From: a virus
Direction: 5' to 3' (one strand)
Virus record (IMG/VR): IMGVR_UViG_3300044617_000745
Location: 1 to 40,134 of that record
DNA: 40,134 nucleotides
This document shows positions 2,675-31,768 of the stretch, one piece after another. Position numbers and translations under genes: made by a program. The first letter of the stretch is position 1; each line of letters begins with the position of its first letter. The notes under the pieces are model-generated. The model was given only the letters and a program-made list of their open reading frames with translations. It was not told where the DNA came from and ran no database searches.

Positions 2675-3565
2675 TTAGGTAATCGTTGCGCCAACGTCGT
2701 CGATGTTGGCCGGGGACAAATTCACCCACGCGGTGCCGGTGTAGCCCTCGAAGGCGCCAGCGCTGGTGTTGAAGCGGATCATGCCTGTGGCTGGGGTGTT
2801 CGGGCGCTGTGCGGTTGTGCCAGTTGGTAGTTGGATGAACTGGTTTGTTGTAAGAAAGTTGGAGTTCAGGGAAACAACGCCGTCGCTGACTGCGATGCCG
2901 TTGCCGGCGGTCACAGTAGCGTTGCTGCCGGCAGGTCCTGTAGCACCAGTAGGGCCGGCGGCGCCCGTGGCACCTGTAGCGCCCGTTAAACCTTGGGGAC
3001 CTGTCTCGCCTTGTGGGCCCGTGGGGCCGGCAGGGCCTGTTTCGCCTTGTGGACCTGCTGGGCCGGTCAGACCAATTGGGCCTTGTTCGCCCTGGGGGCC
3101 TTGAGGACCTGTTGCTCCAGTTGGGCCGGTAGGTCCGGTGTCGCCTTGTGGACCTGCAGGTCCCGCAGGGCCGGTTGCGCCAGTTGAACCTGTTGGGCCG
3201 GTTGCGCCGGTTGGGCCAGCGGGTCCGGTGGGGCCGGCAGGGCCAGTAGCGCCTGTTGGTCCTGCAGGGCCTGCGTCTCCCTTGGCGGCCTCCGCTTGGT
3301 TGCCGCTGATTGTTAGTTGCGTGGTGCGGAGGCGGCCGTTCGTGTCTTTTGTGCCAAGTGCAACGGGCTCGCTAGGCCAGCCATTGCTGGACTTAGGGCC
3401 GTAAAGCTGTTTGGTGCGGCGGTCGATGTACCAGTCGCCGGAACTGCCCGCGTCGTCTGGAGGACCGTCGCCGGATAGCAGCGTCGTGAGATTTTTGAGT
3501 TTTTTGCTGAGTTTGACGAGCGCGGTGACTTGGGCCAGCGTCAGGTAGTCCTGTTTGGTGGCCAT
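2675..3565 (-). CDS. collagen-like repeat structural protein
   Basis: The protein has 296 residues. Residues 1-95 form a charged N domain with a [14 protein letters not shown] segment. About residues 97-213 are Gly-X-Y triplets ([12 protein letters not shown]), a collagen-like trimeric stalk. The end, with [19 protein letters not shown], is a small beta domain common at phage fibre ends. Such stalks are known in phage tail fibres. Here the gene sits in the head module, between portal and scaffold, so a capsid-surface fibre is as likely as a tail fibre. At DNA level the repeat is an imperfect 9-bp tandem, prone to length variation. Its ATG lies 5 bases past the portal stop. Confidence 0.8.
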
Positions 3566-3569
3566 CCCG

Positions 3570-5120
3570 TCAGCCCATCATTGCTTGGATTAGACGCTCC
3601 ATCTGGTCGGTAGATATTCCGTCGGAGGAATTTTCTTCCTCTTCTTCGCGGGCTTCTTCCTCTGCAGACTCGGTGGCTTCGTTATCGTCGTCCATTGAGA
3701 CGCCGGCTGACAGGATTTCGCCTTGGCGCAGGATGTCGCGGAACTCTTCGCGGTCGATTACCTGCTGCGTGAACAGTGTCGTCAGGGCGGTAATGTCTTG
3801 GCCGATCAGGCGGTCGATGTCGAAGTCGCGGCTTACGTAGACCTTGGGGGGCTCCAGCTGGAGGTAGTTGGCGGCCAGGTTGAAGGCGCCTTGCAGCGTT
3901 TGCTGTAAATCCATCGAGACCATCGACAGCATCGAGTTGGTGTCGACGCGGTCCAGGCGGCGGGCGTCGGCAGATTCGGCGACAAACTTTTGCTGGCTCA
4001 GAGTGCTGATGCCCAGCGTCGCCATCTGCATCTGCAGTTCTTTTATTTCGTTTGACTGGGCCTCGAAAGCGCTAGACGCAGGCTCCACGTAATAAGCCTT
4101 GTTGCCGGGCTGCATCGCCAACGCATAATTAACGCTAATGGCAAGGTCCTTGGTTTGGTCGTCCCAGCCTTCGAGGACAAGCATGGGTTGGCTGGCGACA
4201 TGCAGGCTGTGGATCAGGTCGGCTTGGCGTTGGAAATGGGCCAGGTTTAGGTAGGCGATGTCCAGTAGTGGGGGTTTGCTGACCAGCGTGTCGGTCTTGT
4301 TCGAGTAAAGGGTTACGAGGGGAATTTCGCCCAAACTGTAAGCGCCAGTTTCAACTAGCTCGTAGTTGCCGCCCGTGGGGCCTGTTACGTCAAACGAGTT
4401 GGGGTACGGCATTTGGCCGTACATGTCCTTGCGGCTCTCCAGTTGGCGGTAGATCTCGTAGCGGCCTGGCTCGATGACGCGGATCTGGTCGTACACTTTT
4501 TCGCCGAAGCGGCCGTCGGGGACGATCGCTTTCTCCGCAATGCGGACCTGGATCAACTTGCCGTAGTTGACCTCGCGGTCCAAGCGCCAGCCGTACACAT
4601 TCTGCGGGTCGACCTCGATCCAGTACGGGCGGCGGTTTAGAGCGCGTTCTTCCGCCAGGCTGCGGGCGCCAGTTGGGGCCGGGAAATCGACCAGTGTGTG
4701 GCAGTGGCCATAGGTAAGGGCGCAGATCAGTAGGCGGCGGGCATACTCGTCTAGGTCAGAGCCGCAACCGTCGACGTCTTTGGCGAAGATTTCGCTCCAG
4801 TAGGGGTCGCCTTCGAGGACGATCGGTTTGCGTAGGATCAGGCCGGCAGCGGCGCGGACCAGTCGTTGGGTGAAGGGTGAGAAGACGGCGCGGTTGACGC
4901 GGGCCAAGTAGGCCGTGTAATCCTCGCGGGGTTCTAGGGGGAGGAAGGTTTCGCTGTTTTCGCGCAGGTATTCGGTGCCTAGGCTGACCGCTTTCATGAT
5001 TTCCCAGCCGCGCATCATGTCCAGCACGGCGCGGGTGCGCGTGAAGGGTGAGTCAGTCGGGCCTTCGAAGGTCGAACTGACAAGATGGGTGCGGATTTGG
5101 CCGGGAACTGCGTAGGTCAT
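3570..5120 (-). CDS. portal protein (DUF4055-type)
   Basis: A 516-residue protein. Its start, with a short N domain and the segment around residues 25-80 containing [21 protein letters not shown] and [20 protein letters not shown], resembles the DUF4055 family of phage portals. A long helical C-terminal half contains [24 protein letters not shown], typical of portals, followed by a very acidic [11 protein letters not shown] tail. It would form the dodecameric ring at the capsid vertex through which the terminase pumps DNA. It stands between the terminase block and the capsid genes, as expected. Starts 4 bases after the preceding gene. Confidence 0.88.
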
Positions 5121-5124
5121 CGGG

Positions 5125-5397
5125 TCACCATTTCACCTTATCGGCCCAGTAGGCGGCGGACATTTTGCCTTTCTTTATGTTAGAGGCATGACGCGCTTTG
5201 AACGATGCCCTTCTGGCCTTCGCTGCTTCTGTTTCTCCTGTTTTTGGTGGTGAGCCAGTTACGCCCTGTTGGCCGAAACGGATAAGTTTTACTTTGTCGC
5301 CGTCTTTTGCGAGGACAACGTGTGATTTTTCGGGGTGATTGGGGGTGCGTTTGGGTTTGTTATAACCCTCGAAGCGTTCGCCGCGATACTCAATCAT
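5125..5397 (-). CDS. small basic conserved phage protein
   Basis: 90 residues, rich in Lys and Arg. A beta-like first part contains KVKLIRFGQQGV, followed by a basic KARRASFKARHAS segment and the ending KMSAAYWADKVKW. Short proteins with this architecture are frequent in cyanophage genomes, where they have no known function; the basic motif suggests nucleic-acid contact (inference). Its ATG overlaps the end of the upstream gene by 8 bases, indicating translational coupling, and it ends 4 bases before the portal ATG. Confidence 0.7.
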   Translation of the reverse strand: MIEYRGERFEGYNKPKRTPNHPEKSHVVLAKDGDKVKLIRFGQQGVTGSPPKTGETEAAKARRASFKARHASNIKKGKMSAAYWADKVKW

Positions 5398-6309: not shown

Positions 6310-7557
6310 TTAGTAGAGGCGGTAGTTGGTGCTGCCGAGCTTGGAGTAGTTGACGAGGTTGAATTGTTGGAGGCAGAGGTAGCCGAAGGCGTCGAAAGCG
6401 TGGTCGACGCCGAGATTTTTGTTGGGGAGGCCGGTATTTGGGGTGTAGGTCAGGGTGCGAAGGGATTTGATGAGTTCTTTGCAGCGGGGGTGGATGAGGG
6501 TGCGGCGTGTTCCAGCAGCGTCTAAAAGGGCGGTGTTGACGCACGTGACCTTGTCGCGGATTTTCCAGGGGGATTTTGGGCTGGAGACCGTGAAACCGCT
6601 GCGGCGGAGGATGTTGTGGTCGGTGAGTCCCACGCCGCTGGTTTTGCGGGCGCCGCCGGTGGGGTCTGGGCAGGCAATAATGCGGCGATCCACGCCGAAG
6701 CGGCGGGTGACCTCCTCGGCAAAGTCCCACGTGGTGGCGCCACCCGTCATCATGATTTCGTCGAAGACGTAGAGCGTGTCGTCTTTTTTGACCGCGCAGA
6801 TGCCCGACATCGGGTCCACGTTGAAGTCCACCCCCAGCAAAAGGGGCAGGATTGGGATGTCGGCGGCCTCGGGGTTGATGTTGCTGTCTCCGAAGGAGAC
6901 CGCCACTAGGCCGGAAAGATTCTCGAAGCTGGCTTCAAATTCTTGGCGGAAGGTGCGGGCGTCGAGTTGGCCTCGGGCGGCTTCGATTTCTTCCGGTGGG
7001 ACGTTGTCGCCTTCGATTGTCGTGAATTGCCAGCGGCTCCAGTCGTTGTCGCCGCTTTCGGCGTATTGCCATAGTTCGTAGAACCAGCTGGCGGTGCCGT
7101 CGGGGGTGGAGATGAACAAAGCCCAGCCTTGTTTGTCCGCTAAAGCCGGGCGGATTACTTCGAACCAGACCTCGGCGTCCATGAAGGCGGCTTCGTCCAG
7201 CACCACGCCGGCCAAACTGCGGCCGCGCAACGCCATTGCGTTTTCGGTGCCCTTTAATTCGATCGTGCTGCCGTTTACCAGCTCAATCTTCAGGTCGGTT
7301 TCGTTCTTGCTCTTGATCCAGGCCTTTGGGACGAGCTTTTTCATCACCTTCCAGGCGATGTCCTTCGCCATTCGGTATGTAGGGGCCGCGTAAAAGAACG
7401 TTTCGCCCGGCCGCTCGATCGCCCCACGCAATAATTCGATACATGACAGGTAGCTTTTGCCGAAGCGGCGGCCGGCAACCAGCACACGGAAGCGTTTGCG
7501 GCTGCCAAACACCTCGCCTTGGGCCCAACGGAGCGTTAATGCTGGCGATTCGGGCAT
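6310..7557 (-). CDS. terL: terminase large subunit
   Basis: 415 residues, the usual length. The ATPase part has a Walker A-like GRRFGKS at 29-35, a Walker B hydrophobic run ending in D121-E122, and the coupling motif ISTP near 149-152. The C-terminal RNase H-like nuclease keeps its acidic residues: D244 (GVDFN), D298 (ACPDPTG) and D385/D389 (VDHAFDAFGY). It cuts concatemers and pumps DNA through the portal. The gene starts with ATG at 7557 without a clear Shine-Dalgarno, behind a TACACT box. The small subunit lies about 0.7 kb upstream, separated by two micro-genes. Confidence 0.92.
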   Translation of the reverse strand: MPESPALTLRWAQGEVFGSRKRFRVLVAGRRFGKSYLSCIELLRGAIERPGETFFYAAPTYRMAKDIAWKVMKKLVPKAWIKSKNETDLKIELVNGSTIELKGTENAMALRGRSLAGVVLDEAAFMDAEVWFEVIRPALADKQGWALFISTPDGTASWFYELWQYAESGDNDWSRWQFTTIEGDNVPPEEIEAARGQLDARTFRQEFEASFENLSGLVAVSFGDSNINPEAADIPILPLLLGVDFNVDPMSGICAVKKDDTLYVFDEIMMTGGATTWDFAEEVTRRFGVDRRIIACPDPTGGARKTSGVGLTDHNILRRSGFTVSSPKSPWKIRDKVTCVNTALLDAAGTRRTLIHPRCKELIKSLRTLTYTPNTGLPNKNLGVDHAFDAFGYLCLQQFNLVNYSKLGSTNYRLY

Positions 7558-7730: not shown

Positions 7731-7731
7731 C
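7720..7731. promoter_or_regulatory. 12-bp palindrome GTACGGCCGTAC, possible operator
   Basis: Perfect dyad overlapping the stop codon of the micro TM-HTH gene; a half-site-like GTAGTACGGC recurs at about 7756-7765. It would be a natural binding site for a small dimeric HTH protein, but that link is inference. Confidence 0.3.
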
Positions 7732-7916
7732 TAGCCCGCGAGTGCTCGGCGGACGGTAGTACGGCTGCACTGCAGGTGATCAGCGATGCGCTGCTGCGTC
7801 CAGCCGTAGGACCGAAGCCGCCGTGCACGCTGGGGCCTGGACTCTGTGGCCCAGAGCAGGATCAGCAGGGGGAGCAGGAGCAGAGCGGTGATGGCCGCGA
7901 GGGTCGTTGTTGTCAT
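7731..7916 (-). CDS. membrane-anchored helix-turn-helix microprotein
   Basis: 61 residues. Residues 5-23 (LAAITALLLLPLLILLWAT) form one strong transmembrane helix with a short N terminus. An Arg-rich linker leads to a helix-turn-helix at about 36-58 (WTQQRIADHLQCSRTTVRRA), similar to resolvase/HTH_23-type motifs. A single-pass membrane protein with only an HTH behind it is unusual. It could hold DNA at the membrane or be a membrane-tethered regulator (inference). It has its own TACTGT box and the same GGCA-rich leader directly before ATG as three neighbouring genes; there is no Shine-Dalgarno. Confidence 0.7.
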   Translation of the reverse strand: MTTTTLAAITALLLLPLLILLWATESRPQRARRLRSYGWTQQRIADHLQCSRTTVRRALAG

Positions 7917-8016: not shown

Positions 8017-8136
8017 CTACTCCGCCGGAACCGTGGCGCCGATGGCCAGGCCCCCAGCCGCGAGAGCGACGGCCAGGGGGAGGTTAGCGGTTGACGTGGC
8101 GAGTGCCAGCAAAACGAGAGCGGTGATGGTGCGCAT
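8017..8136 (-). CDS. 39-residue hydrophobic membrane microprotein
   Basis: Read from ATG at 8134-8136: MRTITALVLLALATSTANLP followed by LAVALAAGGLAIGATVPAE. It consists almost entirely of two hydrophobic segments with a short Thr/Asn-containing turn; the first could act as a signal-anchor. The start is set by the shared leader GGCAAACCAAGCC directly before ATG and a TATTGT box 28 nt upstream, both repeated at other genes. No family recognised; a small-membrane-pore or envelope-modifying role is possible. Its N terminus (M-x-T-x-T-A-L/A) resembles that of the TM-HTH microprotein next door. Confidence 0.6.
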   Translation of the reverse strand: MRTITALVLLALATSTANLPLAVALAAGGLAIGATVPAE

Positions 8137-8163
8137 GGCTTGGTTTGCCTGAACTACTCTCAC

Positions 8164-8236: not shown

Positions 8237-8695
8237 TCAGGCCTGCCGCTTGTCCTCAACCGTGATCTGCAACGCCGGCGCCTGGGCCGCCAGGGTTTCC
8301 GGCGCAACCTCGCCGACCACCGCGCCAAGGTCTCGCATGAGTAACTGAGCTGATCCGATCTGGCCTTTACGGATAGCTGCGTCAATTGCTCTCATGCGCA
8401 TAGCCTGAAGACGTGAAACTATACTCTCGCGATCTTTGCTCCAGTCGTCCTCGTTCCACTGTTTCACGGCGTCCCAGTCACGCCATGCTGTAACTTCGCC
8501 GATGCTTTCGCGATCAGCATGATCTAGCACCAGCTGCCGAACGGGTAGGCCCGTCAACTGCCGCTTATAAAGCCGCTTGCGCCGCTCTTCAATCACGGCA
8601 TCTGGGTTCCGCTTGCCATAGGGTCGCGGTCTTTTCTCTACAGTCTCCGGAAGATCTTCCGGAACCACGCTGTTAGCTTCCGGCTGATCCGTCAC
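8237..8695 (-). CDS. terS: terminase small subunit
   Basis: 152 residues from GTG at 8693-8695, chosen because GGAG lies 9 nt upstream and a terminator separates it from the previous gene; an ATG at 8785 would read through that terminator. After a charged N terminus, residues about 40-75 form an HTH with KRQLTGLPVRQLVLDHA and a TAWRDWDAVKQW helix. A coiled-coil oligomerisation part (RLQAMRMRAIDAAIRKGQ) and a tail with ALQITVEDK follow. That order is typical of phage small terminases, which bind pac/cos DNA and load TerL. The nearby large subunit supports the call. Confidence 0.75.
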   Translation of the reverse strand: MTDQPEANSVVPEDLPETVEKRPRPYGKRNPDAVIEERRKRLYKRQLTGLPVRQLVLDHADRESIGEVTAWRDWDAVKQWNEDDWSKDRESIVSRLQAMRMRAIDAAIRKGQIGSAQLLMRDLGAVVGEVAPETLAAQAPALQITVEDKRQA

Positions 8696-8738
8696 AGTTA
8701 CAGTCTCCAATCTTTGGTTCAATCTTAAGCGCCCAGCG

Positions 8739-8762
8739 AAAAGCCCGACCGTGTGGCCGGGC
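8739..8762 (-). terminator. intrinsic terminator behind the ArdA-like gene
   Basis: Minus-strand stem GCCCGGCC/GGTCGGGC (one G-T pair) with ACAC loop, followed by TTTT. It is 24 nt past the stop at 8786. Confidence 0.75.
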
Positions 8763-8785
8763 CCGTAAGGTTTGCAGTGTGCCAA

Positions 8786-9424
8786 TCAGACCGACCGGAA
8801 GACCAGCCATTCACCGCCGCCTATGTCATGGAGCCGGTAACCGTCGCCAGTCTGTAGCTCACGCCATGCAGCGTCCCAGTCAATACAGTTAAGCGGCCAA
8901 TGCTGCTGATCACTGACCATGCCGGAATCGTAGGCGGTCTGCTCTGCAAAATCAGCACCAGCCCTTTCCTCTGACCAGCCCTCGGCTCTGCCCTGGTAGG
9001 CGTCCTCGATGTTGTCAGGGTCCAAGCCGTCAGCTTCCAACCGCGCCACCAGCTCAGCCCAGCCTTCGGGATTGTCATCCCCGAAGCCGAGCACTTCCAT
9101 AGCGTCGCACCATTCCGGCGTCAGCCAAAACCCGAAGCAAGCGCCATCCCCTTCAGACGCGCCAAAATAAAAGCCGGCGGGCGCCGCATCCTGCAGGCAA
9201 GCGGCCAGGCTCTCCAGGGCCCAGCCGGCCCGCTCAGCGTCCCAGTCAGACTCGCTGGAATCCTCGCCGACCAGCCGCTGCAGGTCTGGCAGCAGATCCG
9301 TAAGGTCTGCTCCGATCTGCTCTGCTGCGCCCCAGAACTTGACCAACAGATCTTCGGTCCTAAGGGTGTCGCAGCTGACGATCCAGGGAAAGGTCGCTAG
9401 CTGCTCTGGTGTGTACGTTGCCAT
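8786..9424 (-). CDS. ArdA-like acidic antirestriction protein
   Basis: 212 residues from ATG at 9422-9424. The C-terminal half has the ArdA-type sequence: IEDAYQG, an acidic EERAGADFAEQTAYDSG helix, then WPLNCIDWDAAWREL and a final VFRSV. The N-terminal half (residues 1-110) is a separate acidic domain with FYFGASEGDGACFGFW, unlike classical 165-residue ArdA. There is one Lys in the whole protein against dozens of Asp/Glu, the charge pattern of a DNA mimic that blocks type I restriction enzymes (family knowledge). The gene has its own TACCAT box and the GGCAAACCACC leader, and a terminator behind it, so it is a single-gene early unit. Confidence 0.72.
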   Translation of the reverse strand: MATYTPEQLATFPWIVSCDTLRTEDLLVKFWGAAEQIGADLTDLLPDLQRLVGEDSSESDWDAERAGWALESLAACLQDAAPAGFYFGASEGDGACFGFWLTPEWCDAMEVLGFGDDNPEGWAELVARLEADGLDPDNIEDAYQGRAEGWSEERAGADFAEQTAYDSGMVSDQQHWPLNCIDWDAAWRELQTGDGYRLHDIGGGEWLVFRSV

Positions 9425-9454
9425 GGTGGTTTGCCGTGGTGTGGCTTGTGTGCA

Positions 9455-9460
9455 ATGGTA
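9455..9460 (-). promoter_or_regulatory. putative -10 box TACCAT
   Basis: Minus-strand CCTTACCATTGCACACAAG, 31 nt before the ATG at 9424. Confidence 0.35.
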
Positions 9461-9480
9461 AGGCCTGAACCGGCCGGCCG

Positions 9481-10329
9481 TCAAACCAGAACCGGCGCCA
9501 GAGGATCGGTCGATCCATCAGGCCAGGGGTAGGGTTCCCGCCGCCATTCCTGCGAGGGATCCAGCAAGGGCAGCCCGGTCAGGTCTCGCAGATCGTAAAG
9601 GTCCAGCGCTTCCGCCACCTTTGAGATACGGATCCAGAACCCGCTGTTTTGCTCTTCTTCCCAGTACTGGTTAGACGCTTCCGCGCAAGTGTTGAAAAGG
9701 TCCAGCAGCTTAGGATCCAGCACGGCGTCGGGGATCAGGTCCAGCTGATCGTCAGCCCAGAACTTGGCAGTGCTCGGCCCATACTGGTTAGCCTCGACCA
9801 CTGCTAACGGGGCGTATTGCGCCAGTGCATCCCGTACGGCATTCCGCCACTCTGAAGCAGCCCAGCTGTTCCAGGCTTCCGTCTGGCAGTCCAGCTCAAG
9901 GGCGGAGTGGTCCCCGTCGTCCAGTACGGGGTAACTCTCCAGGGACTCTATGGTTTCGACCATGTCATCCGTCAGGAACCTAAGGTCCAGGGCGGTCCCG
10001 TCGGCGTCACCGTCTGCCCGCTCCAGCTCACGGCTGAACTGCTCACGGAAGACACGGGCGTTGGAGCGGTAGTGTGACGGGGCGTCGTAACCACCGGGCC
10101 AGCTGCAATCAGCGTCAAGTTTTGCCGGGCTGAAAAGCAACCTGCAGTTGCGCCAGTGTTGTTGCTGGCATTCGATCAGTGCAGCTTCTGCCGTCCGAAT
10201 GCCGAAACACGGCAGACGGTCCAGATCGTAGCCTCGTTGGTTCTGATCCCTGCGATCTAGGATCCAGGTTCCCTCGCAGCCGTCAAGGCGCTGCAGACGA
10301 TCCAGCAGAACAGGATTCGGTTTTGTCAT
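9481..10329 (-). CDS. hypothetical acidic protein next to ArdA-like gene
   Basis: 282 residues. It opens with MTKPNPVLLDRLQRLDGCEG and contains HYRSNARVFREQFSRELERA, a FLTDDMVETIESLESYP segment and a Trp-rich helix (WNSWAASEWRNAVRDALAQY). Strongly acidic, no signal peptide or membrane segment. I have seen similar proteins in phages without assigned function. Its charge, early-type promoter and position upstream of an antirestriction gene suggest a host-defence-evasion role (inference). The leader AGGCCTACCACGCC sits directly before ATG, with TACTGT 25 nt upstream. Confidence 0.65.
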   Translation of the reverse strand: MTKPNPVLLDRLQRLDGCEGTWILDRRDQNQRGYDLDRLPCFGIRTAEAALIECQQQHWRNCRLLFSPAKLDADCSWPGGYDAPSHYRSNARVFREQFSRELERADGDADGTALDLRFLTDDMVETIESLESYPVLDDGDHSALELDCQTEAWNSWAASEWRNAVRDALAQYAPLAVVEANQYGPSTAKFWADDQLDLIPDAVLDPKLLDLFNTCAEASNQYWEEEQNSGFWIRISKVAEALDLYDLRDLTGLPLLDPSQEWRREPYPWPDGSTDPLAPVLV

Positions 10330-16141: not shown

Positions 16142-16393
16142 ATGGACACCCACACCAGCCTGCACACCAAGCTGGACAACAGCAAGCTCAGCGAGTACTA
16201 CTTCGCAACCCGCTGGGCCATCACCAGCATCAAAGAACGCATCGCAAACACCGAGAAGTACGGTCTCAGCGCCAGTTACGACAGGCACCAGCTGGAACGC
16301 TTGGAAGACATGGAGCAATGGCTCAAGATGAGCTGGGACACGTGGATGGAGCAGTTGACCGGCCATCGTGTTGAGGAGGTGAGCCGTGGCTGA
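16142..16393 (+). CDS. hypothetical helical protein
   Basis: 83 residues with AGAGG 5 nt before ATG. Entirely helical and charged, Trp-rich: SEYYFATRWAITSIKERIAN, then a DRHQLERLEDMEQWLKMSWD helix. No family recognised. It overlaps the next gene's start by 8 bases, so the two are coupled. First gene of the second plus-strand early cluster. Confidence 0.6.
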   Translation: MDTHTSLHTKLDNSKLSEYYFATRWAITSIKERIANTEKYGLSASYDRHQLERLEDMEQWLKMSWDTWMEQLTGHRVEEVSRG

Positions 16394-16667
16394 TGTTCTC
16401 GCAGTGTTGGACCTTTCTTTTGGGGTGGATGGGACGTGCCATGTCGAGGCCCTGGTCGATGATGTGGTCGTGGTGCATCCGCCCACCATGGAAGAGCCGG
16501 CCGAATGGGGGCCTGCCGTGTGCCGAGGCTCCTTCTACTTTTGTGATGAAGACGTAATTCCAGCTACCGATGCAGGACTCCGGCGCATGTTCGAGGACCG
16601 AATCGAGAACTGGGAGGTGGTGGACCAGTCCGATCTCTACGACTTTGGCGAGGACGACGCGGAATGA
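16386..16667 (+). CDS. hypothetical acidic protein
   Basis: 93 residues from GTG at 16386 with GAGGTGA upstream. Acidic, beta-rich first half (VLAVLDLSFGVDGTCHVEAL), aromatic middle (CRGSFYFCDED) and an acidic end DLYDFGEDDAE. No family recognised. A continuing frame in +1 (NEEDYDDWGYG...) begins at its stop codon, so a longer product by frameshift, or a separate gene with an odd start, must be considered. Confidence 0.6.
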   Translation: MADVLAVLDLSFGVDGTCHVEALVDDVVVVHPPTMEEPAEWGPAVCRGSFYFCDEDVIPATDAGLRRMFEDRIENWEVVDQSDLYDFGEDDAE

Positions 16668-22676: not shown

Positions 22677-22900
22677 GCGGAGTCGCGATCGAGGCCGCAA
22701 ATTTCCGACAGGTTGTTAGCGGCTTCTTTTATCGCCCACCTGCATTTGGTGCGCTCCATGTGATACAGGGTGTTCAAAAGCAGTGCGGCCTCGAATAAGC
22801 CGTTCCAGTCCTTTTCGGTGTAACGCTGTCTGAGCCAGTGGTCGTGCTTCGCTTGGTCGAAGGCGTTTTCTGGTGTTTGCTCCAGTGGGTTCATGGTCAC
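22673..22900 (-). CDS. hypothetical protein after the endolysin
   Basis: 75 residues from GTG at 22898-22900 overlapping the endolysin TGA (GTGA); an ATG two codons later is an alternative. MNPLEQTPENAFDQAKHDHW, RYTEKDWNGLFEAALLLNTL, then MERTKCRWAIKEAANNLSEI. Fully helical, no membrane segment, no family recognised. Coupling to the endolysin suggests late expression. Confidence 0.6.
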   Translation of the reverse strand: MTMNPLEQTPENAFDQAKHDHWLRQRYTEKDWNGLFEAALLLNTLYHMERTKCRWAIKEAANNLSEICGLDRDSA

Positions 22901-24012
22901 ATCGGGCGGATTTTCAGGTACCAGCCGCTGTCGGGACCGTCAACGAGCCAGCGAGGAAGCCAGTTTTTTCGGGAGTATGCCACGCCGGCGCCTCCTTTGT
23001 TGCTTATATAGCCACCATTCACCAAATCGGCATCGCCATTTGGGTCGTTGTGCAGGAAGTGGGTCGGGGTGAAGCCGATCACCACGCTCCAGTGGCCTGA
23101 ACCAGTGGGTTTGTTGACTGGGCCGCGATGGAGCCAGCCCACTGGGGTGGGGTAGCCCATGCGGATTTCGGCTTCCAGGTCGGAGGCGGTGCCTTCTTGC
23201 TCGAACGTGGCGCGGAGTCCCAGCTCTTTCAAAGCGGCGATTTGGGCGTGTACGTTTGTACTATCCCCGTATTTGCGGCGGATTAGGTTGTAGGCGTCGT
23301 CGTTGCCGATTTTTTTCCAGTACCGGGCAATCATTGCACAGCTGGAGCTGAAGCACTCGCGGTAACCTGTGCCGCTTTTGTTGTCGAGCTGGTATTCGTA
23401 GGGGACTTTGAGAATAGATTCGTTAGTTTTTACGGTTTTTTCTGCTTGGGTGTTAATTACCTTTACCAGCTTGTTTCCGTAATCGGGATCGGTAGCGTAG
23501 CCTTCTTTTTGTAGCCAGTGCGCGGCGTCTTCGATGCTGGTGGCGTTGTTGCAGCCTTTGTAGGTTTTGTAATCTTTATACCAGCGATCAACTAAATAGC
23601 AGACGGCGGTTTGGATGTCTGGGAATTGCAGGAATGAGTCGCGGATTGTGATCCACTGGCCGTTTATAAATTCTTGCGTGGTGCTGGTGGTGCCATCGCC
23701 TTTTAGGCCAAAAAAGTTGTTGCGGCCTGTTACAAGTTTGCCCCAGCTAGATTCGAGGGCCCATTGGGCGGCAACCAGTTCTGGGTATTTGGCGCCGGCA
23801 ATCCGGCCGGCCATCACAATGCCGTCCCAGTTGTTTTCGATTGGTGGTTGCTTGCCGGACTGGCTCCAGGTTTTGAACCACGGTTGGGTGCGGTTGAGCA
23901 GCTTGGGGTCGGCTTTGTTGATCGCTTCCTCCAGCTCGGCTAAAGCCGCCATTTGGTGGGGAAGCGATCGGTAGAACCGAGCTAGGTCGAGTAGACGAAT
24001 GGTGCTGGTCAT
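22897..24012 (-). CDS. two-domain endolysin: glucosaminidase plus C39-like peptidase
   Basis: 371 residues. About 60-190 is a glucosaminidase-type muramidase domain (AAQWALESSWGK with candidate catalytic E87, then TGRNNFFGLKG, the flagellar FlgJ/LytG pattern). About 205-365 is a papain-fold peptidase of the C39-like type: C220 in YRECFSSSCAMIARYW, H307 in GHWSVVIGF, D323 after the FLHNDP strand. Together they could cut both glycan and peptide of the cell wall. No signal peptide, so release depends on a holin. Lies directly downstream of the holin-like gene and overlaps its -1 frame extension by ATGA. One domain may instead act during entry, but position favours lysis. Confidence 0.82.
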   Translation of the reverse strand: MTSTIRLLDLARFYRSLPHQMAALAELEEAINKADPKLLNRTQPWFKTWSQSGKQPPIENNWDGIVMAGRIAGAKYPELVAAQWALESSWGKLVTGRNNFFGLKGDGTTSTTQEFINGQWITIRDSFLQFPDIQTAVCYLVDRWYKDYKTYKGCNNATSIEDAAHWLQKEGYATDPDYGNKLVKVINTQAEKTVKTNESILKVPYEYQLDNKSGTGYRECFSSSCAMIARYWKKIGNDDAYNLIRRKYGDSTNVHAQIAALKELGLRATFEQEGTASDLEAEIRMGYPTPVGWLHRGPVNKPTGSGHWSVVIGFTPTHFLHNDPNGDADLVNGGYISNKGGAGVAYSRKNWLPRWLVDGPDSGWYLKIRPM

Positions 24013-28009: not shown

Positions 28010-28015
28010 ACTTTA
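28010..28015 (-). promoter_or_regulatory. putative -10 box TAAAGT for the fibre gene
   Basis: CTAAAGTGTAAAC on the minus strand overlapping the gpJ stop, 25 nt before the fibre ATG. Confidence 0.35.
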
Positions 28016-31000
28016 GACGCCCTTGCCAAATCCCACGGCACTCCATAGGAAATTGCGGCTAACCGCAGTGCCGGCGCTGTTTCTGAAGGTCACATCGAAG
28101 CCGGTGTTGCTGACGTTGGTGACGTTGAAGTAGTCGCCAGTAGCCAGGTTTTGGGCCACAATGCCGATGCTGGGCAGGTAAGCGTTAACGCCGCCGAGAC
28201 TGGCTGTTCCAGTGAAAAACGCCTTGTCGAACGCGACCGATGCAGTCCCAGCGCCGCTGGTGACGGTGCCGACAGACTGCTCGCTACGCCGCTGGAAGGT
28301 GGCGTCGTAGCCCAGTTCGTCAACAAGGATGCTCTCAGCAGGATCGGAACTTGTCAGTTCGGCTTTGAACTGGAAGCCACGCCCCAAGAATGTGCCATTA
28401 ACGAACTCCTGCCAGCCGGACCAAGTTGGAGTGCCAGCAGGATTGTCTGGTGTGCGGCGCAGGTATAGCTTGGCGTTGACCGCGTCGATCACGCCGCCGT
28501 CCCAGTCGGACCAATCATCGACAAGCCCACTGCGGCTGTCGATCAGGTCGCTTGGCAGGAAGCCACGGGTGACGAAATAGCGGCGTAGATCCAGCGAGAA
28601 CACCGCGCCAAGGTCAAGGGTGCTGGTAAAGGCGTACTCACCAGAAACTTCAATGTCGCCGAAAAAGTCAAGCGTAGCGATCAGATCAAAGTCGACAATG
28701 TCATCAAATAGGCCGTCCGCATCCAGTGCCAGTGCATCAAGGTCTTCGCTGTAGAAGGTGTTGGTTTTTGCGCCTTGGAATGGCGGCACATCCTGATCTT
28801 CTCGGCGTTGTTGGATAATCAACGCCCCAACAGCATCAGGGAAATCGACGATGACGCTGGCTTCTTGAGGGCTTTGGCGGCCGCCGTCATCCTCGAACTT
28901 GACCAAGATTTCGCCTTCGACCAGCGGCACGATGGCTTCTGTCGAGGCGCCTGATTTGGCTGGAATTAGGTCGACACTGTTGCTCCAGGTGCCGCTTCCG
29001 TTGGTCAGGTTGGTGTGGCGAATGTGGACGCGGCCGCCAGTTTTGACGTCAAGGTCAACAGTCTGATCCCAGCGCAGGCGGGCACTGTTGGCGCTGATCG
29101 GCTCGATGGTCAGGTTCTGGACGTTGCCTGGAGGGGCGGTTTTGCCAACCAGCGTGAACTGTGCCGTTGAGGCAACGCTCAGTTTGTTGAGGCTGTTGAC
29201 GCTGCGGATTTGTACGTACAACGTACCGGCACGCAGGCCAGTAAGCCGTGTTGAGGGCGAAGTCGTGTTGATCTGGATCCAGTTGTTGTTGTCGATCCGA
29301 TATTCGACGCGGAAGCCCGCGACGCGCTGCACCGGACTGATCCAGCTCAATTCAACAGCAGTAAGGACACTCTGGCCATCTTCGTAAAGGTGCTCGACGG
29401 CGGTAATTGATCCGGGGGCGTCGGGGATGGCCGATAGATTGCTGATGTCGCGGAACTGGAGCGACAGGTCGCTTTCGATCGCGGCGTAGATGCTGCTGTT
29501 GTAGGTCAGCGCTGTGACGCTGAACGCACCAGCTTCGCCTTCGGTGACCGACAGAACACGGAACTGGTTGGATTGGATGTCGGTGGTTTGGATTAAAAAG
29601 ACGCTTTCTGCGTTGGGTGCTTCGCTAAATGCGCTGCTAACAGTAAATACACTGCCGGCAATGCTGCTGATCGAGCGTGTCTCAACCAAGCCAGTTGGCA
29701 GCAACACGCTGATGGTTGGGGAGTTAGCTGTAGTTGTGGGAAGCCCGACCGTGGAATCGACTGTGATGGCTGTGGTAGTGGCGCTGCTGATGCGGCCTGA
29801 GCGACGGCTGCCTGACTTGACCGGGTCGGCAATGTCGATCACCATGCCAGGGCGCAAAATGATGCCCGACTCCAGTGAAACAGAGAAGCTGACGGTTTCG
29901 GTCAGGTTTTGCTCGGCCAGTAGGGCCCATTTGCCGAGGCGGTGTGCTTGGCCACGGCTGTAGCAGCCCATGGCCTTAATTTCTTTGTTGATTACCCCGT
30001 ACTTAGATACAGCGTCCGAGTCTTCGACGTACTCGAACTGGACTTCGCCAAGGCTGTCGTAGGTCTGGTAAGCAACGGTGGCCGTGCTATGCCGTGCTTT
30101 TTGCGAGCTGCCCGAATAGCTGAAGTTGCCGTCGATAACGTTGCTGGGTCCCAGCAGATACTGCGAGGAGGCCGGTTTGTCCTGCAGAACCACCATCGAG
30201 CCGGCGCCGTAGTAAGCGATGCCTCGGAACAGCGAGACAAACTCTTGGATGACGTTGTAAATTTCGTCGCGATTGTTCAGCAGTAGGTGACACTGAAAAC
30301 GTGGTTCTTGCCCGCCGAAGCCGTTGCTAACCAGTTCGTTGCAGTATTGGCTGATGGCGTAAAAGTCAAACTTGTCGAGCGTGGCAGCAGGAATAGCTGC
30401 TCCATAGCGGGTATTGGTGATCAGGTCCCATAGGCACCACGCGGGGTCAGCACACCACGTGGCGGCGCCGAAGGTGCCATCCCATACGCCGGTATAAGTG
30501 ACGCGGCCGATATAGGTGGTGGTGTCGACAGTTGCGTTGGACGGCAGCTGCACCTTCGTGGCACGGATCAGATATTTTCGCGTCGGGATGCTGTCGAACT
30601 GGCGCGAGTCAAACCGCAGGAACGACAGTGCTGAGTTTGGGTATCTCAGTTTTTCGTCGAGGATTTCTGTATAGCTGAACCAGAAGGTGCGGTTTTGGCG
30701 ACGGGCACTGCTTTCATCGGCAGACACACGCACCATGCGAATGTCGATAGGGAAACTACCGCTAAATGTCAGCAGATAATCGCGCTGATAGCTGTTGGTG
30801 GTTTTGCCGCTGATTGTGTCATCTACAACCGTGGTATAACCGCCGCCGTTGTATTGGACTTGCAGCTGGATGCGGACACTGTGGCCGATGATGTCACCAT
30901 CGTCTTCAATAATCTGCAACGCTGGCAGTTGGATAGTCACCCGCACGCGATCCACGTCGGTGTCGGTGATCGTGCGAACGACGGGCGTTGCTTTTGTTAC

Positions 31001-31768
31001 CTCAACATTGACGGTGTTCTCAGCCTCTGTGCCGCCGGTAGCGGCGATGTAGGTCTGGGCTTGCGTGCCAGTGCGGAAGTCAGTGGTATAGCCGCTGAAG
31101 TTGCTGCTGCCACCTGGCCCAACGATGGGCGTACCATCTAGATAGACGCTCTTTAAGCCGTCGTCGAGGCCTTGAATCTCGCCTTCGCATAGCAGATCGA
31201 GGACGCTGGCGTACTGGACTGACTGCAGCGAGTCATCAGCTTCAGTTGGGACGCTTTGTGATCCACCGCCGCCTTTGCCGCCACCGCCACCGCCGCCTGC
31301 ACCTGCGATCGTCGCACCGAGGCCTGCGTTATGGACACGGATGTTGTCGGCAATAAAGGTGTGCTGGTCTTCGACCGTCAGGTTGTAAACAGTGCCGCGC
31401 TCCAGTTCGTCTTTGCGCAGGATTGGACGCAGGTGGCCGAGGCCGTCGACCAGACAGTCATCTGCGCCAAGCGTGTCGATGCAGACGAAGGCGTTGAACT
31501 GGTTCAGCACCCAGTGGTTGGGTGTCGCATCTAAGTACGTGCCGCCCCACAGGTGGTAGCGCTTGATTGGCTGGTCTTCGTGTATATGGACCTTGAGGAT
31601 CTTCGCCGGGTGAATCTGGCCACGGTCGTCAAAACTCAGGACGATTTCGCCGGGCTCCAGTGAGTCGATCCGGCGTTGGCCACCTGGGACGCTGATAAGC
31701 GTGTAGTTCGGAAAACAGCCGCTACCACCGCCGCCACCACCTGCACCTTGGATTACGGGGTAAGTCAT
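28013..31768 (-). CDS. tail tip / host specificity protein gpJ with N-terminal Hint domain
   Basis: 1251 residues. Residues 1-17 end in a Gly-rich run; 18-147 are a Hint (intein-like) domain; a second Gly-rich run leads into the normal gpJ start at about 178 (SLQSVQYASVLDLLCEGEIQ). The middle has the gpJ core (tail-hub domains, with SYTEILDEKLRYPNSAL and the LTETVSFSVSLESGIILRPG segment). Fibronectin-III-like domains follow at about 780-960 (PGSITAVEHLYEDGQS, PPGNVQNLTIEPISANSARL). The C terminus is beta-rich and host-contacting. Lambda gpJ is 1132 residues, so the Hint accounts for most of the extra length. Coupled to gpI by a 4-base overlap. It forms the tail tip that contacts the receptor. 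Confidence 0.88.
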   Translation of the reverse strand: MTYPVIQGAGGGGGGSGCFPNYTLISVPGGQRRIDSLEPGEIVLSFDDRGQIHPAKILKVHIHEDQPIKRYHLWGGTYLDATPNHWVLNQFNAFVCIDTLGADDCLVDGLGHLRPILRKDELERGTVYNLTVEDQHTFIADNIRVHNAGLGATIAGAGGGGGGGKGGGGSQSVPTEADDSLQSVQYASVLDLLCEGEIQGLDDGLKSVYLDGTPIVGPGGSSNFSGYTTDFRTGTQAQTYIAATGGTEAENTVNVEVTKATPVVRTITDTDVDRVRVTIQLPALQIIEDDGDIIGHSVRIQLQVQYNGGGYTTVVDDTISGKTTNSYQRDYLLTFSGSFPIDIRMVRVSADESSARRQNRTFWFSYTEILDEKLRYPNSALSFLRFDSRQFDSIPTRKYLIRATKVQLPSNATVDTTTYIGRVTYTGVWDGTFGAATWCADPAWCLWDLITNTRYGAAIPAATLDKFDFYAISQYCNELVSNGFGGQEPRFQCHLLLNNRDEIYNVIQEFVSLFRGIAYYGAGSMVVLQDKPASSQYLLGPSNVIDGNFSYSGSSQKARHSTATVAYQTYDSLGEVQFEYVEDSDAVSKYGVINKEIKAMGCYSRGQAHRLGKWALLAEQNLTETVSFSVSLESGIILRPGMVIDIADPVKSGSRRSGRISSATTTAITVDSTVGLPTTTANSPTISVLLPTGLVETRSISSIAGSVFTVSSAFSEAPNAESVFLIQTTDIQSNQFRVLSVTEGEAGAFSVTALTYNSSIYAAIESDLSLQFRDISNLSAIPDAPGSITAVEHLYEDGQSVLTAVELSWISPVQRVAGFRVEYRIDNNNWIQINTTSPSTRLTGLRAGTLYVQIRSVNSLNKLSVASTAQFTLVGKTAPPGNVQNLTIEPISANSARLRWDQTVDLDVKTGGRVHIRHTNLTNGSGTWSNSVDLIPAKSGASTEAIVPLVEGEILVKFEDDGGRQSPQEASVIVDFPDAVGALIIQQRREDQDVPPFQGAKTNTFYSEDLDALALDADGLFDDIVDFDLIATLDFFGDIEVSGEYAFTSTLDLGAVFSLDLRRYFVTRGFLPSDLIDSRSGLVDDWSDWDGGVIDAVNAKLYLRRTPDNPAGTPTWSGWQEFVNGTFLGRGFQFKAELTSSDPAESILVDELGYDATFQRRSEQSVGTVTSGAGTASVAFDKAFFTGTASLGGVNAYLPSIGIVAQNLATGDYFNVTNVSNTGFDVTFRNSAGTAVSRNFLWSAVGFGKGV
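31328..31717 (-). other. Hint (bacterial intein-like) domain inside gpJ
   Basis: 130 residues from C18 to N147 of gpJ. Block A is CFPNYTLISVPGGQRRIDSL; block B is ATPNHWVL with T82 and H85; block F is VYNLTVEDQHTFIADN; block G is IRVHN. The next residue is Ala148, not the Cys/Ser/Thr needed for canonical splicing. Terminal His-Asn, Cys1 and the TxxH are intact, so N-S acyl shift and Asn cyclisation remain chemically possible, as in A-type bacterial intein-like domains. No homing nuclease is inserted. Confidence 0.8.

Follow-up and report, generated by a model that had tools for sequence, protein, structure and literature searches.

In the virus record analyzed here, a stretch of 40,134 bp referred to as the window, the ArdA-like gene upstream of the terminase genes encodes a chimeric protein in which the C-terminal part of ArdA is carried on an undescribed phage domain. 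We consider it fairly probable that this gene is an autonomous counter-restriction cassette, with a C-terminal domain that keeps the dimer-forming and groove-occupying part of ArdA behind an acidic N-terminal domain, and that the adjacent gene for a 282-residue acidic protein (p282) is independent of it and has a separate counter-defense role.

Organization of the locus

Both genes are real and lie on the minus strand at the places given in the preliminary description, with the terminase genes downstream of them. In the order of transcription, the p282 gene (positions 10329 to 9481) comes first and the ArdA-like gene (9424 to 8786) second. The latter starts with the ATG at 9424; a TTG start at 9484 was rejected as a mechanical extension. 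The next gene on the same strand (8237 to 8785) probably encodes the terminase small subunit, as judged by its position only; searches of Pfam and PHROG gave no match for it, and its true start may be the GTG at 8695, past the terminator-like site described below. The gene for the terminase large subunit (6310 to 7557, minus strand) was used as a context marker and as a seed for the collection of related loci. Among the matches listed, the closest terminase of a cultured virus was that of cyanophage S-2L, at just 43% identity, and "cyanophage" is therefore only a lead as to the affiliation of the window phage.

In S-2L (L282; 1753 to 3959), PurZ, MazZ, and DatZ, the enzymes for the altered DNA base of this phage, precede a small ORF and the terminase, in the position taken by p282 and the ArdA-like gene in the window phage. 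The altered base of S-2L escapes restriction. Two small minus-strand ORFs located 3' of the ArdA-like gene in the window (7731 to 7916 and about 8017 to 8138) resemble p282 in their start regions; by eye, the three have in common a TACTGTG-like stretch and a CCACGCCATG-like end.

Some other features of the window were also recorded. A 93-residue ORF (16386 to 16667, plus strand) is more acidic per residue than both the ArdA-like protein and p282 (net charge, -20; no Lys), and it had no Pfam match and PHROG matches only at E values of 0.16 or worse. The J-like tail tip protein (28013 to 31768, minus strand) starts with an intein/Hint-like stretch, for which the Pfam matches Intein_splicing (E value, 6.2e-5) and Hint (E value, 3e-4) were both below the curated cutoffs. 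A lysis-type protein with glucosaminidase and C39-like peptidase domains is encoded at 22897 to 24012 (minus strand), and a collagen-type repeat protein (2675 to 3565, minus strand) adjoins ORF 3570-5120, presumably the portal gene, upstream of ORF 1727-2446.

The ArdA-like protein is a chimera

The ArdA-like protein consists of 212 residues, including 24 Asp, 20 Glu, 9 Arg, and, as had been noted before, a single Lys, which gives a net charge of -34 and a pI of 4.05. Strong acidity is a property of the family, the net charge per residue ranging from -0.13 to -0.18 in the 40 aligned rows (40 of the 42 rows at 90% nonredundancy, with L103, truncated at a contig end, and L064, of uncertain start, left out). 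The AlphaFold2 model calculated from these 40 relatives had a pLDDT of 90.9.

The likeness of the C-terminal half (residues 107 to 212; positions 8789 to 9106, minus strand) to ArdA, which the preliminary description had proposed, is more than chance. Tn916 ArdA (2w82_A) was the top row in VIA-align (Z score, 6.3 over 86 residues at 3.0 Å), with model residues 107 to 212 placed on ArdA residues 75 to 165; this score is itself middling on the scale of the tool, and the runner-up had a Z score of 4.6. The same structure ranked first in Foldseek, but at an E value of only 0.2. In hhalign, the C-terminal half matched a profile of nine ArdA proteins of other phages (E value, 2.7e-7; probability, 93%), and the PHROG "anti-restriction" family matched the protein with an E value of 5.5e-5. 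The Pfam ArdA model PF07275 had no match to the window protein, even at an E value of ≤1, and detected one of the 40 family members (E value, 0.0011); weak Pfam matches were to HEPN_Toprim_N and DUF6735. A sequence search of the PDB with the family gave a best E value of 0.17 and no ArdA among the matches, and neither the ArdA-like protein nor p282 was matched in PADLOC or NCBIfam.

The C-terminal domain of ArdA (residues 104 to 165) is thus present with its fold in VIA-align and hhalign and, at the E value given above, as the first rank in Foldseek. ArdA domains 1 and 2 (residues 1 to 103) were not found by profile in the ArdA-like protein: the N-terminal half aligned to the ArdA profile with a probability of 0.1% (E value, 0.7). 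Since the VIA-align alignment begins at ArdA residue 75, part of domain 2 is kept. Residues 1 to 106 (positions 9107 to 9424, minus strand) are not ArdA, and the front half of ArdA has therefore been replaced rather than extended. Consequently, the acidic domain of about 110 residues seen earlier does exist as a distinct entity, of 106 residues, but it is a substitute for the ArdA front and not an addition to it. The two domains are fused in one frame in all 40 aligned rows. In L198 (3830 to 5321), the ArdA-like and p282-like genes are each split over two frames, owing to decay, a frameshift, or an assembly error.

Compared with ArdA (PF07275; Tn916 ORF18, PDB 2W82), the window protein has the C-terminal domain fold, the family profile, the strong negative charge, and the status of an accessory gene of a mobile element in common, whereas ArdA residues 1 to about 74, i.e., domain 1 and some of domain 2, have no counterpart in it, a different domain taking their place, and the Pfam model misses it.

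The N-terminal GDG-FGFW domain

An alignment scan with the N-terminal domain gave 179 relatives, 80 of whose loci were kept. The 23 translated loci include, beside the fusions to ArdA, free proteins of about 105 to 190 residues, some with a C-terminal tail, and, in L258, a protein that is still open at the limit of the stretch examined and thus has at least 1,093 residues. The motif of the domain is close to [YF]FGA..GDG[SA].FGFW. In PHROG, the window domain and its free forms alike matched phrog_29605, a family of unknown function, and NCBIfam had no family for either; in Pfam, the 40 ArdA-like relatives and three free forms had isolated weak matches only. The phrog_29605 family includes ORF041 of Pseudomonas phage KPP25, which has the same domain with the YFGA..GDG..FG.W motif but a different C-terminal part with no ArdA domain. 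A fusion of the domain to yet another C-terminal module occurs in L256; a free form of this module is encoded upstream of the terminase in L315 (35% identity; E value, 7e-15).

From this distribution, the N-terminal domain appears to be a portable module. In one lineage (L273 to L275), the only one in which such adjacency is known, a free copy immediately follows a full-length ArdA gene, which was identified with PF07275 in L273 and L275 (E values, 6.8e-39 and 3.9e-38, respectively) and with the ArdA profile in L274 (E value, 2.3e-47). That the domain lies beside ArdA in one phage and is fused to it in another is a usual sign of a functional link.

The possibility that the domain is a diverged ArdA domain 1 was not supported by profile, although by eye both consist at that place of a helix followed by a β-hairpin. 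VIA-align rows for the domain, obtained with the model of the whole protein, reached a Z score of 4.6 at most (LnaB), and no plasmid copy was seen in a search with one stand-alone form. In two Pseudomonas phages (L113 and the phiR18/CRPAP1904 records), relatives of the domain bear the label cysteine desulfurase, probably a misannotation: KPP25 and phiR18 have identical copies, and the only match of the KPP25 copy is phrog_29605.

p282 belongs to an acidic family of its own

Protein p282 (282 residues; pI, 4.31) has a net charge of -26. The strong acidity ascribed to it earlier therefore holds for the protein as a whole, but it is confined to residues 84 to 282, residues 1 to 83 having almost no net charge (-1). 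In the 46 aligned rows of the family, the net charge per residue is -0.08 to -0.16. PHROG 3906 matches residues 118 to 170 (E value, 5.5e-10), and hhalign aligned p282 with the actinophage phrog_3906 proteins over 107 columns (E value, 6.8e-14). Three parts can be distinguished: an N-terminal module (residues 1 to 83), a conserved core (84 to 182), and a C-terminal module (183 to 282). The core is common to the actinophage proteins, and the first 83 and the last 100 residues are swapped in relatives. Thus, p282 and the phrog_3906 proteins of Mycobacterium, Rhodococcus, and Gordonia phages are alike in the core (residues about 80 to 198), in size, in acidity, and in a frequent ArdA neighborhood, and they differ in the terminal modules and in the phage group.

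The p282 model (pLDDT, 90.6) is mostly helical. In the Foldseek viral library, it matched proteins of Indlulamithi and RGL3 with a probability of 1.00 (E values, 0.004 and 0.02; TM scores, 0.37 to 0.46), which were assigned by protein length as gp44 and gp61, respectively. A Foldseek search of the PDB gave nothing at an E value of ≤0.001, and the best VIA-align row, primase RepB' (3h20; Z score, 3.5 over 112 residues at 4.1 Å), was under the noise level of the tool; by sequence, there were three PDB matches, the best with an E value of 0.39. An evident enzymatic fold, which had been named as a finding that would speak against a DNA mimic, was accordingly not seen in the structure searches. Only a few residues are invariant, most of them structural (N90, L130, and Y133), and hence they give no hint of a catalytic center.

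We also considered p282 as a hidden relative of ArdA and rejected this on an hhalign probability of 0.4% (2.1% against the ArdA-like family). By these profile comparisons, p282 appears unrelated to ArdA and constitutes an acidic family of its own, as the preliminary description had it in placing only one of the two proteins in a known family. A search of plasmids with the actinophage homologue P0002 gave no copy. A scan of genome contigs gave one with the p282 core motif, a Streptomyces contig (L199), where the protein is encoded at 4623 to 5324.

Promoter- and terminator-like signals

A sigma-70-type promoter-like sequence precedes the ArdA-like gene (9455 to 9484, minus strand; TTGACG, 18 nucleotides, TACCAT). 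TTGAC and TAnnnT boxes 17 to 18 nucleotides apart and ending 30 to 36 nucleotides before the start codon were found for 21 of the 40 ArdA-like homologues, compared with a mean of 0.075 and a maximum of 2 in the shuffle control. In the window, the -35 box and the p282 stop codon overlap, and the latter may therefore explain part of the conservation of TTGAC; the box persists in homologues without a detected p282 relative, e.g., L088 and L109. An intrinsic terminator-like site with an 8-bp stem, an ACAC loop, and TTTT lies 3' of the gene (8739 to 8762, minus strand). A strict search found terminator-like sites for 23 of 41 ArdA-like homologues, a count made without a shuffle control; the window site was missed by the consensus scan because the scan wants at least 5 T's in 8 positions.

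For p282, the strict promoter pattern was found in none of 40 homologues and a loose one in 9 of 40 (shuffle mean, 1.1; maximum, 5), so that the promoter evidence is weak. Of the "sister" promoters envisaged for the two genes, that of the ArdA-like gene is a conserved one, and that of p282 is doubtful. Accessory genes flanked by their own promoter and terminator are known as morons. Judged by these sequence signals, the ArdA-like gene looks like a self-contained, moron-like cassette.

Cooccurrence of the two genes in uncultured phages

Contigs collected with p282 as the seed formed a set of 75 after deduplication, from which L024, lacking the core, was removed; a contig was evaluable if ArdA was seen or if 1 kb was available on each side. 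ArdA was located within 700 bp in 23 of the 62 evaluable contigs, and none was near in 39. Conversely, 37 of 66 evaluable ArdA-seeded contigs (80 in the set) had p282 within 700 bp. Both gene orders occurred among the near pairs (17 and 6 in the p282-seeded set and 32 and 5 in the ArdA-seeded set). In seven further uncultured contigs outside the 62 (L130, L131, and L137 to L141), ArdA lay beside p282 in L138 only; for L140 and L141, <400 bp downstream of p282 was available for this check.

Loci were also sampled by terminase. Among the 40 loci (out of 80; closest relatives among the matches listed) with at least 3 kb upstream, 4 had both genes, 6 only the ArdA-like gene, 8 only p282, and 22 neither (odds ratio, 1.8; Fisher P = 0.34); 8 of the 12 loci carrying p282 were thus without ArdA. 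Of 21 long records, chosen for holding one or the other gene, 9 had both, 6 only the ArdA-like gene, and 6 only p282. Where both were present, they were within about 130 bp of each other in eight records and 1.3 kb apart in one. Contig L032 encodes an ArdA-like protein 97% identical to that of the window and has no p282. Adjacent genes in swapped order were seen in L094 and L108 (only 25% terminase identity to the window), in L098, L100, and L101, where a window-type terminase is on the other strand, and also in L266; in L196, a full-length ArdA lies beside a short p282 relative.

A fixed partner gene was looked for in the loci with p282 and no ArdA, and the gene downstream proved to be variable. 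Among the other residents of the slot are acidic proteins that belong to no family of known function (L300, L332, and L338; net charges, -24, -17, and -16, respectively), and its contents vary widely, neutral and basic genes included. The best reading of the terminase-seeded and long-record counts is thus that, within this phage group, the ArdA-like gene and p282 would be independent residents of one variable slot upstream of the terminase.

Neighborhood of p282 homologues in actinophages

The annotated surroundings of 7 out of 100 matching actinophage records were inspected. The p282 homologue adjoins ArdA in Myradeevirus and lies two genes from it in Benedictvirus, Bantamvirus, and Rerduovirus, i.e., it is at most two genes from ArdA in four of the five genera examined, and ArdA was present in 10 of 12 IMG/VR copies of such phages. 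No ArdA was detectable in the whole record of Indlulamithi, which carries a p282 homologue, or in the 6.6-kb stretch examined of Archetta (L128), which has a p282 fragment. We take Benedictvirus to consist of cluster A phages. Since the MyraDee (Myradeevirus) subcluster is also placed within cluster A in its description (PMC5658500), these genera are not independent counts.

Relatives of p282 thus recur beside ArdA in several unrelated phages, among actinophages and uncultured phages alike. The preliminary description had named homologues lying mostly away from antirestriction genes as a finding against the two-part unit. This applies in part, namely, to the three samples of uncultured phages (39 of 62, 6 of 7, and 8 of 12 without ArdA) and not to the actinophage genera.

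An RNA sequencing study of Rhodococcus phage WC1 (Rerduovirus) placed an anti-restriction gene in the early cluster and reported 56 of 69 genes upregulated at 5 min, with 13 named exceptions (PMC10986025). The p282 homologue WC1_66 is absent from the exceptions named there and hence, by exclusion, belongs to the 56.

These neighborhoods bear on another explanation of p282, namely, that it is an acidic regulatory or packaging-related protein preceding the small terminase gene and that its proximity to ArdA reflects a shared hotspot for accessory genes. The wide variability of the slot, the lack of cooccurrence with the ArdA-like gene inside the group, and the arrangement in L158, L161, and L168, where, without a window-type small terminase gene, p282 is followed by genes that by eye look like helix-turn-helix or small terminase genes, are all in line with it. 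However, in Benedictvirus, Bantamvirus, Rerduovirus, and Myradeevirus the homologue is near ArdA at the right genome end, and in WC1 that arm is early, whereas the terminase is a late, left-arm gene. We therefore regard this explanation as a real possibility but not the probable one.

Predicted functions

PMC3906837 divides ArdA into domains 1 to 61, 62 to 103, and 104 to 165 and attributes antirestriction to the first two and antimodification to the third. By these limits, domain 3 and a portion of domain 2 remain in the window protein. It resembles in this respect sArdC, which likewise keeps the C-terminal part of ArdA only and which, according to PMC12548430, is active against type I systems with both activities. 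As described there, sArdC is free-standing, chromosomal, and 114 residues long in Lactococcus cremoris, whereas the window piece is fused to a 106-residue acidic domain and encoded by a phage. Because a free-standing C-terminal piece has both activities, we would expect an active chimera whose range has changed. ArdA domains have been reported (PMC5512222) to be closely associated with ArdC-N in polyvalent proteins of Firmicutes, and ArdA fusions as such are therefore known. Among the papers listed in searches of the PMC full text, we found no description of the ArdA fusion, of the N-terminal domain, or of a function for phrog_3906, and we found no assay of any member of the ArdA-like or p282 family.

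It could also be argued that the protein no longer inhibits restriction and that, joined to the N-terminal domain, the ArdA piece has become a dimerization or regulatory module, e.g., a modulator of gene expression, given that the half to which antirestriction was mapped is absent and that ArdA proteins can affect gene expression, as reported in PMC13300388. We consider this unlikely, as the isolated C-terminal piece retains antirestriction and antimodification in the sArdC study and the N-terminal domain adjoins a full-length ArdA gene elsewhere (L273 to L275). A dedicated two-part DNA-mimic unit, as first proposed, in which p282 would contribute half of the mimic or a further target, is less probable still, and as an obligate pairing it is not supported by the terminase-seeded counts: the adjacency in swapped order, the closeness in four actinophage genera, and the short distance in eight of the nine long two-gene records favor it, but each gene often occurs alone (39 of 62 p282-seeded contigs, six long records of either kind, and L032), the association in the terminase-seeded loci had a P value of 0.34, and the ArdA-like gene has separate promoter- and terminator-like signals.

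Returning to the cassette proposed at the outset, the ArdA-like protein is probably an antirestriction DNA mimic. Its C-terminal domain keeps the dimerizing portion of ArdA, which the published model also places in the DNA groove of the type I modification core, and it most likely binds this core as a DNA mimic. The front half of ArdA, to which inhibition of the restriction subunit was mapped, has given way to an acidic phage domain, which most likely adds a second acidic surface or partner and probably broadens or shifts the target range. For p282, as a member of another family, a counter-defense function is plausible; it most likely represents a second factor acting alone, probably early after infection.

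More tentatively, and with considerable doubt on our part, counter-defense proteins of this kind might be built combinatorially. The GDG-FGFW domain would then be a portable DNA-mimic or docking module that retargets the ArdA C-terminal domain or others, and p282 and phrog_3906 would represent a new, mostly α-helical class of acidic counter-defense proteins distributed across uncultured phages and actinophages.

If the proposed explanation is right, ArdA evolves by domain replacement, beyond truncation alone, and the chimera would allow the published division of labor in ArdA, in which the front half acts against cleavage and the rear against methylation, to be tested directly. Two unstudied phage protein families thereby become testable candidates for counter-defense, one of which has cultured members in Mycobacterium and Rhodococcus phages.
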